Assembly: GCF_020099395.1 (NCBI RefSeq)
Contig: NZ_CP083590.1
Coordinates: 3,906,001 to 3,970,000, forward strand
DNA length: 64,000 bases
From: Streptomyces mobaraensis
Lineage (GTDB): Bacteria > Actinomycetota > Actinomycetes > Streptomycetales > Streptomycetaceae
Direction of reading: 5' to 3'
Below the pieces are notes generated by a model that saw nothing but the letters and a program-made list of their open reading frames with translations, had not been told where the DNA came from and ran no database searches. This document shows, piece by piece, positions 55,043 through 57,910 of the stretch (positions are counted from its first letter, which is position 1; each line of letters starts with the position of its first letter). A program made the position numbers and the translations under genes.

Positions 55043-55073
55043 GAAGGCCCCGGTCACCAGGACCGGGGCCTTC
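55043..55073. terminator. Shared terminator, kinase (+) and tRNA-Gly (-)
   Basis: A 13-bp perfect stem (55043-55055 with 55061-55073) closes ACCAG between the kinase stop and the 3' end of the oppositely oriented tRNA gene. Confidence 0.85.
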
Positions 55074-55079
55074 ACTCTG

Positions 55080-55152
55080 AGCGGACGACGAGGCTCGAAC
55101 TCGCGACCTCAACCTTGGCAAGGTTGCGCTCTACCAACTGAGCTACGTCCGC
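55080..55152 (-). tRNA. tRNA-Gly (GCC), copy 1
   Basis: A 73-base cloverleaf with acceptor stem GCGGACG/CGTCCGC, D-loop AGTTGGTA with G18 G19, anticodon loop TTGCCAA (anticodon GCC), T-arm GCGAG-TTCGAGC-CTCGT and discriminator U. CCA is not encoded. It reads GGC and GGU codons. It is identical in sequence to the tRNA at 57376-57448. Confidence 0.95.
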
Positions 55153-55185
55153 ATGCCCCGCGCGTTTCCGTGCGGTGCGGGTACC

Positions 55186-57337: not shown

Positions 57338-57365
57338 AAAAAACCCCGGCCACGGGGACCGGGGT
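57338..57365 (-). terminator. Terminator of tRNA-Gly copy 2
   Basis: On the minus strand ACCCCGG pairs with CCGGGGT and is followed by six T residues (57343-57338), a classic intrinsic terminator. It separates the tRNA from the DesK-type gene. Confidence 0.8.
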
Positions 57366-57375
57366 CTTTCTCTGG

Positions 57376-57448
57376 AGCGGACGACGAGGCTCGAACTCGC
57401 GACCTCAACCTTGGCAAGGTTGCGCTCTACCAACTGAGCTACGTCCGC
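57376..57448 (-). tRNA. tRNA-Gly (GCC), copy 2
   Basis: Same 73 bases as the tRNA at 55080-55152, with anticodon GCC. Its leader (TAGAGTGGT at the -10 position and GCACCGC) resembles that of copy 1, so the duplication included the promoter. The two copies flank a DesK/DesR-type pair. Confidence 0.95.
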
Positions 57449-57526
57449 ATGCTCCCGACCGGCTTCACCGGGCGGTGCGAACACCACTCTACCTGATCCA
57501 CCGGGGTGGTCGGGACGAGTGATGAG

Positions 57527-57598
57527 AGCGGGTGACAGGGATCGCACACTGCGCCTCCCCCTTGGAAAGGGGGCGCTCTACTACTGAGCTACACCCGC
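57527..57598 (-). tRNA. tRNA-Gly (UCC), tandem copy 3, altered elbow
   Basis: A 72-base cloverleaf: acceptor GCGGGTG/CACCCGC, D-arm GCTC-AGTAGTA-GAGC, anticodon arm CCCCC-TTTCCAA-GGGGG with anticodon UCC, discriminator U, no encoded CCA. The D-loop lacks the G18 of normal tRNAs (A instead) and the T-loop reads TGCGATC with G at 55 instead of U. The T-stem pairs poorly (four pairs at best). It should read GGA and GGG if charged and used. It is identical to the copy at 57759-57830. Confidence 0.8.
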
Positions 57599-57642
57599 GA
57601 GACCATCCTCCGGACCACGAACGTGGGCCGGTGAACGGCTGG

Positions 57643-57714
57643 AGCGGGTGACAGGAATCGCACACTGCGCCTCCCTCTTGGAAAGAGGGCGCTCTACTAC
57701 TGAGCTACACCCGC
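57643..57714 (-). tRNA. tRNA-Gly (UCC), tandem copy 2, altered elbow
   Basis: Same fold and same D- and T-loop departures as its neighbours. The anticodon stem is CCCTC/GAGGG in place of CCCCC/GGGGG, a paired change that keeps the stem, and the T-loop ends in T instead of C. The compensatory change argues that the gene is under selection as a structured RNA. Confidence 0.8.
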
Positions 57715-57758
57715 GCGTCCACCCATCGAGCCGCCGAAGCGGACCGATGAACGGCGAG

Positions 57759-57830
57759 AGCGGGTGACAGGGATCGCACACTGCGCCTCCCCCTTGGAAA
57801 GGGGGCGCTCTACTACTGAGCTACACCCGC
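57759..57830 (-). tRNA. tRNA-Gly (UCC), tandem copy 1, altered elbow
   Basis: First of the three in the direction of transcription; identical to the copy at 57527-57598. The three genes repeat every 116 bases with 44-base spacers. Its promoter is predicted at 57880-57910. Confidence 0.8.
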
Positions 57831-57879: not shown

Positions 57880-57910
57880 ACTCTAGCGGATCATGCGGGG
57901 GGGAATGCAA
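57880..57910 (-). promoter_or_regulatory. Promoter of the tRNA-Gly array
   Basis: On the minus strand TTGCAT (57910-57905) and TAGAGT (57885-57880) are spaced by 19 bases and point to the tRNA genes, giving a 5' leader of about 45 bases before the first one. TAGAGT is also the -10 box of tRNA-Gly copy 2. The rest of 57831-58076 is GC-rich and holds no gene. Confidence 0.5.

Follow-up and report, generated by a model that had tools for sequence, protein, structure and literature searches.

A conserved tRNA-Gly(UCC) of unusual build in Streptomyces as a candidate cell-wall tRNA

Introduction

Giannouli et al. are said to have reported in 2009 on non-proteinogenic transfer RNA (tRNA)-Gly(UCC) isoacceptors of Staphylococcus aureus. 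Passages in several reviews cover these isoacceptors (PMC4052509, PMC8007984, PMC4810233, PMC9976931), and in two of them the dedicated tRNAs are said to escape EF-Tu through changed 49-65 and 51-63 pairs and through changes at positions 18-19 (PMC4052509, PMC9976931). Here we analyse a 64,000-nucleotide stretch of the Streptomyces mobaraensis genome (hereafter the window; G000:C1:3906001-3970000 of a 7.67-Mb genome), in which three tandem tRNA-Gly(UCC) genes share several features with the staphylococcal isoacceptors. On balance, we lean towards reading this array as a dedicated, largely non-translational tRNA-Gly working like the staphylococcal cell-wall tRNA-Gly, and we find the inserted base in its T-stem to be more telling for such a role than its altered elbow.

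In Streptomyces coelicolor, FemX attaches a single glycine branch according to the passages seen of PMC4790382. No description of a comparable tRNA in actinobacteria was found in the portions of the open-licence PMC literature that our search returned. Those portions do mention DasR binding at glyS and near a tRNA-Gly gene upstream of SCO3679 in S. coelicolor (PMC4398421), and an antisense RNA directed to tRNA-Gly(CCC), not UCC (PMC8388888).

Results

An array with an altered elbow and an inserted T-stem base

The array comprises three 72-nt tRNA-Gly(UCC) genes arranged in 116-nt tandem units on the minus strand. Infernal, used with Rfam RF00005 (gathering score 29) for the tRNA calls in the window, detects all three: the promoter-proximal copy 1 at 57759..57830 (54.9 bits), copy 2 at 57643..57714 (54.6 bits) and copy 3 at 57527..57598 (54.9 bits), which is identical in sequence to copy 1. 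These scores compare with 70.2 bits for the adjoining tRNA-Gly(GCC). ARAGORN calls the outer two copies, both as tcc, and misses the middle one. No Rfam family other than tRNA reached its gathering score in the window.

With position numbers assigned by us from the Infernal alignment, the D-loop AGUAGUA of all three copies reads A14 G15 U16 A18 G19 U20 A21, and the T-loop, UGCGAUC or UGCGAUU, reads U54 G55 C56 G57 A58. The T-stem (GCAG-U-G / C-CUGU) contains an extra U, which bulges out between pairs 52-62 and 53-61. U54, C56, A58, G19 and the G15-C48 partners are retained, and the middle copy carries a compensated C-G to U-A change in the anticodon stem. An earlier sequence-only reading of this DNA had described three tandem genes with A18 and G55, a weak T-stem and the paired change in the middle copy; all of these stand, with the addition that the weakness of the T-stem is caused by the inserted U, a point which that reading had missed.

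The non-standard elbow it had claimed is equally evident against the whole genome. Among 71 tRNA hits, including the three atypical copies, 68 have U54-U55, and U54-G55 is found only in the array; an ungapped 5-bp T-stem is likewise present in 68, the exceptions again being the three atypical copies, which thus show neither the G18-U55 elbow nor the unbroken T-stem of ordinary elongator tRNAs. The D-loop stretch contains GG in 67 of the 71 hits, the exceptions being the atypical copies and tRNA-Leu(UAA). Compared with the canonical tRNA-Gly(UCC) of the same genome, the T-arm and D-loop of the atypical copies differ chiefly in having A51-U63 where the canonical tRNA has G51-C63, in the inserted U and in the elbow. 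Of the atypical copies, two were subjected to minimum-energy folding and gave a rod instead of a cloverleaf, and the canonical tRNA-Gly(UCC) likewise lacked a full cloverleaf; the cloverleaf thus gets no support from folding, which was not used as evidence. As a separate observation, the gene for tRNA-Leu(UAA), the only other hit without GG in the D-loop stretch, lies at G000:C1:4545295-4545377 and has what we take to be the bldA anticodon.

Conservation and constraint in Streptomyces

A DNA search identified the atypical gene in 61 of 61 Streptomyces genomes, with a copy read in each; the genus was taken to be Streptomyces because named Streptomyces records hold near-identical genes. Of the 25 distinct sequences obtained, 20 went into a covariance model, which recovered the gene at 97 bits or more in 45 of 45 Streptomyces genomes, 42 of them new, for a total of 103 of 103. 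The conservation set comprised 73 copies from the 61 loci, representing those 25 distinct sequences. A18 and G55 are invariant in all 73 copies, and the inserted T-stem base is present in every one, as T except for a C in one copy. No variation is seen in the acceptor stem, that of the T-arm is confined to the inserted base and positions 57 and 60, and the glycine identity positions G1-C72, C2-G71, U73, C35, C36, G10, U16 and C50-G64 do not change; U33, A37 and the G19-C56 and G15-C48 partners are retained throughout.

Variation in the D-stem and anticodon stem is mostly compensatory, with 99.8% of cells paired. Doubly changed cells numbered 20, against a shuffle mean of 5.7, and none of 500 shuffles reached that count. 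Two stricter measures show no excess over the shuffles: four pairs had a double change (62 of 500 shuffles as high) and seven further pair types were seen (490 of 500 as high). For this reason, covariation taken alone is moderate evidence for constraint.

A promoter-like TTGCNN-N19-TANNGT pattern lies upstream of the first atypical copy in all 61 Streptomyces loci, the distance being 49 or 50 nt in 43. Within the window it occupies 57880..57910 on the minus strand, as TTGCAT (57905-57910), a 19-bp spacer and TAGAGT (57880-57885), and ends 49 nt upstream of copy 1. A tRNA-Gly(GCC) gene follows downstream in 60 of the 61 loci, and the remaining locus lies close to the end of its contig. ARAGORN recognises 17 of the 73 atypical copies, so that the gene would mostly be overlooked in annotation based on this program.

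Plasmid and phage origins were considered and rejected. A single plasmid record matched, at 77.8%; two phage records matched at 76-78%, both annotated as tRNA-Gly, and the UCC tRNAs with A18 and G55 found on viral contigs have different stems.

Distribution in the Streptomycetaceae and related lineages

The model search identified the atypical gene in 34 of 41 Streptomycetaceae genomes (five of the 41 being Streptomyces) at 86 bits or more, other hits reaching at most 73 bits. Among the 29 positive genomes outside Streptomyces, 20 were read as sequence. The elbow is A18+G55 in 16 of these and G18+U55 in four (three of genus g2 and one of genus g5, two sister genera of Streptomyces), with no mixed state. 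All 20 retain the one-base T-stem insertion, which is shifted by one pair in g10. By our reading, both A49-U65 and A51-U63 are present in three of the 20, namely G062 and G095 of g3 and G069 of g10.

The seven family members in which the model did not find the gene are the three genomes of g11, the three of g14, and G086. All three g11 genomes carry a different second UCC tRNA (L322 in G083, L328 in G070, and G092:C293:1361-1400) with a body that looks like the GCC type, and in the two genes read completely U33 is replaced by C33. This second tRNA is possibly an independent replacement of the T-stem-inserted gene.

A pattern search for G55 genes returned nothing tRNA-like in the 354 non-Streptomyces genomes of a class sample, in which 40 of 40 Streptomyces were positive, nor in the 384 non-Streptomyces genomes of a phylum sample, in which 12 of 12 Streptomyces were positive. 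The patterns needed a GCGGG..TA start and a CCGCT or CGCT end, and other forms escape them, among them the g2, g3 and g5 genes read, which begin with GCAGG. Four non-Streptomyces matches in the class sample, the G114 match and the second G276 match in the phylum sample, and several rows from UCC-tRNA pattern searches of other genomes were not tRNA-like and were judged to be chance matches. A genome of the same order carries, at G490:C19:709191-709262 (L331), a second UCC tRNA with an ordinary elbow and a T-stem insertion on the 3' strand; its anticodon loop, CUUCCCG, is that of many Staphylococcus-group genes.

Positions 18 and 55 in other lineages

We scanned named species for UCC tRNAs with G55 and 14-15 bases between anticodon and T-loop. 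The 54 stretches obtained belong to Staphylococcus, Mammaliicoccus or Macrococcus (33), Streptomyces (4), Ruminococcus (3), Intrasporangium (2), Propionibacteriaceae (1) and others (11), seven of the latter being named as Patescibacteria-type lineages. By our reading, the four Streptomyces stretches have lost a base from the anticodon stem, which may be an assembly error, and still contain the T-stem insertion.

Of the 21 non-staphylococcal stretches (four of them Streptomyces), 20 combine A18 with G55; the exception, an Omnitrophota stretch (L255), has G18. The same combination is seen in all 13 non-staphylococcal genes from IMG/VR contigs, two of which are identical. Both scans began from G55 and so cover the coupling in one direction, and the D-loop states were read by us, with less certain numbering for the 8-base loops of Ruminococcus. 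A search with one pattern returned no UCC tRNA besides the A18+G55 gene in eight small genomes, seven of them Patescibacteria-type by name, and none besides the G55 gene in the L255 genome; all nine are small or uncultured and some perhaps incomplete, and these counts take TTCCCAAG rows as CCC tRNAs. The G55 genes of the Patescibacteria-type, delta and Polyangiaceae genomes appear to us to have an intact T-stem. Those of Polyangiaceae (L262) and of a delta proteobacterium (L290) lie inside dense tRNA arrays, perhaps mobile, that of L262 packing 30 tRNA genes into 6 kb, including a tRNA-Ala with a UGC T-loop. Since they stand in such arrays and in genomes without FemAB, they give no support to a cell-wall role.

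A GUGCR T-loop beside a canonical UCC tRNA was found in the three Staphylococcus-group genomes tested, two Intrasporangium and one Propionibacteriaceae. Like Streptomyces, Intrasporangium (L254, L270) and Propionibacteriaceae UBA4569 (L243) combine an A18+G55 gene with a canonical UCC tRNA and FemAB, and over their first 44 bases the two Intrasporangium genes are identical to the Streptomyces gene in L087. Unlike Streptomyces, they have no inserted U; the T-stem is instead weakened, by our reading, by G-U pairs in Intrasporangium and by a U-C mismatch in the Propionibacteriaceae gene. Intrasporangium calvum has a triglycine bridge according to the passages seen of PMC3035309. The three Ruminococcus stretches (L240, L252, L282) hold a second tRNA-Gly(UCC) with G55 and a D-loop seemingly without G19, in genomes with FemAB, and could be a further dedicated tRNA outside the staphylococci.

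Redundancy of the UCC tRNA and presence of FemAB

The same genome encodes a canonical tRNA-Gly(UCC) at G000:C1:5014719-5014789, so the atypical copies are not needed to read GGA, and a canonical UCC tRNA was present in all 15 Streptomycetaceae genomes checked. In total, the genome holds four UCC, one CCC and three GCC tRNA-Gly genes. Glycine codons in three window genes, a small sample that we named from their translations as purQ, purL and an lsr2-like gene, are GGC (103), GGG (9), GGT (5) and GGA (2). In that sample, demand for GGA and GGG (11 of 119 glycine codons) does not explain four UCC genes.

A FemAB-family gene is present at G000:C1:3732513-3733628 (PF02388, 158.6 bits), and the best solved match of its product is 6snr, a Lipid II:glycine glycyltransferase which we take to be S. 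aureus FemX. No NCBIfam equivalog reached its cut-off, NF047883 scoring 95.1 bits against 500, which leaves the exact enzyme name unconfirmed. Of 24 genomes searched for FemAB, 19 were positive, including Intrasporangium (2/2), Propionibacteriaceae (1/1), Ruminococcus (3/3), the Staphylococcus group (3/3), order-mates (3/3) and seven of the eight small genomes that yielded no UCC tRNA besides the A18+G55 gene. It was not found in the Polyangiaceae, delta and Omnitrophota genomes of that search, nor in G081. With 3 of 14 control genomes positive, and these 14 providing the only base rate, the presence of FemAB across genera with a G55 tRNA outside the Streptomycetaceae is suggestive.

Neighbourhood of the array and other tRNA genes

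On the minus strand, 78 nt downstream of the array, lies an ordinary tRNA-Gly(GCC) gene (57376..57448), followed by a hairpin and T-run read by eye as resembling an intrinsic terminator (57338..57364); the array and tRNA-Gly(GCC) are likely on one transcript. Between two 112-nt copies (55048-55159 and 57344-57455), 90% identical and each with a tRNA-Gly(GCC), lies a pair of minus-strand genes with open reading frames that resemble, to our eye, a sensor kinase and a response regulator. Elsewhere in the genome, tRNA-Leu(CAA) (G000:C1:5695606-5695680, 75 nt) and tRNA-Leu(UAG) (G000:C1:4768203-4768275, 73 nt) lack the long variable arm that tRNA-Leu usually has, and a tRNA-Ala(GGC)-like gene (G000:C1:5607119-5607191, 35.6 bits) is divergent from two ordinary copies.

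Discussion

The proposal of a dedicated cell-wall tRNA entails a plausible sequence of events. The array would be transcribed from its own conserved promoter-like site, together with tRNA-Gly(GCC). The atypical tRNA would be charged by glycyl-tRNA synthetase, since it retains the glycine identity elements known from bacteria, as listed in passages of PMC9976931. The inserted U and A51-U63 in the T-stem, together with the altered elbow, would then bar the glycyl-tRNA from the EF-Tu and ribosome cycle through poor EF-Tu binding, which depends on the T-arm according to the portion seen of PMC6097841. Finally, FemX (and VanK where present) would use the atypical tRNA as the source of the one glycine that branches from the peptidoglycan precursor; the FemAB-family gene is the natural user because FemX of S. 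coelicolor adds such a branch.

The sequence-only reading had also arrived at a cell-wall interpretation, which is supported in part. The canonical UCC tRNA whose absence would have counted against it is present in the genome, as is a FemAB-family gene, and conservation, redundancy and FemAB speak for the interpretation. Its argument from the elbow is not supported as it was made, because the 18/55 exchange by itself does not mark a cell-wall tRNA, given the eight small genomes with A18+G55 in their sole UCC tRNA, the 13 viral-contig genes, and the g2 and g5 genes, which combine G18+U55 with the T-stem insertion.

Several observations weigh against a dedicated cell-wall tRNA. At the level of the molecule, the g2 and g5 genes retain the T-stem lesion behind an ordinary elbow, and the A18+G55 elbow is probably compatible with translation in Patescibacteria and viral contigs. 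Only one of the two staphylococcal pairs that weaken EF-Tu binding, A51-U63, is present in Streptomyces, and it also occurs in 12 of the 68 ordinary tRNAs of the genome, while the likely transcript is shared with the translational tRNA-Gly(GCC). At the level of distribution, the strict TTGCNN-N19-TANNGT pattern occurs in 1 of 19 loci of other genera, and the model search found the atypical gene in none of 15 order-mates outside the family. In the three g14 genomes and G086, FemAB is present and a second UCC tRNA was not found, and only canonical UCC tRNAs were found in seven f77 genomes (probably Catenulisporaceae, a family whose type species has a wall of LL-diaminopimelic acid and glycine, LL-Dpm-Gly, in the passages seen of PMC3035231). 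Such a tRNA is therefore not obligatory for a glycine branch. FemAB occurs in 40 of 41 Streptomycetaceae, which makes co-occurrence within the family uninformative, and G081 has the atypical tRNA without a FemAB match.

Some of the same evidence favours a translation tRNA of tolerated odd build, reading GGA and GGG and perhaps slow or regulated, in which the extra U is absorbed in the T-arm and A18-G55 replaces the contact of G18 with pseudouridine at position 55 (Psi55). The sole UCC tRNAs of the eight small genomes and the 13 viral-contig genes suggest an elbow that the ribosome probably accepts, and the retention of U33, A37, G19-C56, G15-C48 and the glycine identity positions, as well as the locus shared with tRNA-Gly(GCC), would be expected of such a tRNA. 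However, we read an unbroken T-stem in the genes of Patescibacteria-type, delta and Polyangiaceae genomes, whereas Streptomyces has preserved its lesion genus-wide without repair; a canonical UCC tRNA already exists, and demand for GGA and GGG is modest in the three genes sampled. We regard this explanation as unlikely, if a serious contender. A still less probable function is that of glycine donor for another glycyl-tRNA-dependent enzyme, such as a cyclodipeptide synthase or an enzyme of FemABX type from natural-product synthesis, or of a regulatory tRNA-like RNA. Precedents appear in passages of PMC12945691, where the FemABX-like natural-product enzymes DhpK and Orf11 use Gly-tRNA-Gly, and of PMC3399842, where a Bacillus cereus pseudo-tRNA affects the cell wall outside translation, but a gene found in 103 of 103 Streptomyces is more in keeping with a core function than with strain-specific metabolites, and tRNA alone among the Rfam families reached its gathering score in the window. 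Pseudogenes in decay after tandem duplication, which the low ARAGORN recognition, the reduced Infernal scores and the absence from seven of 41 family members might suggest, are very improbable and largely refuted by lesions that are invariant, stems that stay paired and a promoter-like site shared across the genus, where relaxed constraint would bring random changes, unpaired stems and a lost promoter; the sequence-only reading, which silent pseudogenes would have refuted, is upheld on this point.

The joint switch at positions 18 and 55 suggests that A18 and G55 are in contact. Psi55 is called universally conserved in passages of PMC4810234, where a single hydrogen bond from G18 is described. 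We tentatively suggest, at somewhat less than an even chance and from sequence comparison, that A18-G55 could be a second, interchangeable bacterial elbow pair that replaces G18-Psi55 in tRNA-Gly(UCC): Patescibacteria and phages may translate with such tRNAs, and Streptomyces, Intrasporangium and Propionibacteriaceae would have added T-stems damaged in different ways for a cell-wall tRNA. Were the elbow interchangeable, escape from EF-Tu would reside mainly in the T-stem. The 18/55 exchange also challenges the rule of a universal Psi55 in bacterial elongator tRNAs.

Streptomyces has to share out its glycyl-tRNA between protein synthesis, a wall with glycine bridges and, in certain strains, antibiotic production. 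The portion seen of PMC4052509 describes the way in which aminoacyl-tRNAs are drawn off from translation as unclear in most instances. A dedicated genus-wide tRNA, if the proposal is true, would make that question testable in a tractable producer. It would also mean that the staphylococcal solution is used, convergently or by sharing, in another phylum, and that a core gene has been missed by a standard tRNA finder, ARAGORN.

The comparison with known systems shows both the likeness and its limits. The S. aureus-type and Streptomyces genes are alike in being an extra tRNA-Gly(UCC) beside a canonical one, in a changed position 18, in A51-U63, and in G55 within a GUGCR T-loop; the staphylococcal likeness noted by the sequence-only reading therefore holds, as the UCC tRNAs of Staphylococcus, Mammaliicoccus and Macrococcus carry that same loop, with the reservation that our staphylococcal search pattern required GUGCR, so that G55 there is not an independent point. 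As in the Streptomyces array, more than one copy is found in 15 of the 33 Staphylococcus-group stretches, and FemAB is present in those genomes tested. The two differ at the elbow, where staphylococcal genes change both 18 and 19 (to UU or CU), while Streptomyces has A18 and retains G19 in all 73 copies; at 49-65, where Streptomyces keeps G49-U65 and the staphylococcal pair is A49-U65; and in the T-stem, where the U insertion of Streptomyces has no counterpart among the Staphylococcus-group genes recovered with a pattern that would miss a one-base insertion. Because G19 is kept, we do not file the array as a member of the staphylococcal class, only as working like one. The Bacillus cereus tRNA-Other, compared by its description in the passages seen of PMC3399842, is a tRNA-like gene tied to the cell wall and not to translation. 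Among these systems, the tRNA of the array is probably a Streptomyces variant of the staphylococcal-like cell-wall type, oddly built and present in every Streptomyces genome examined.
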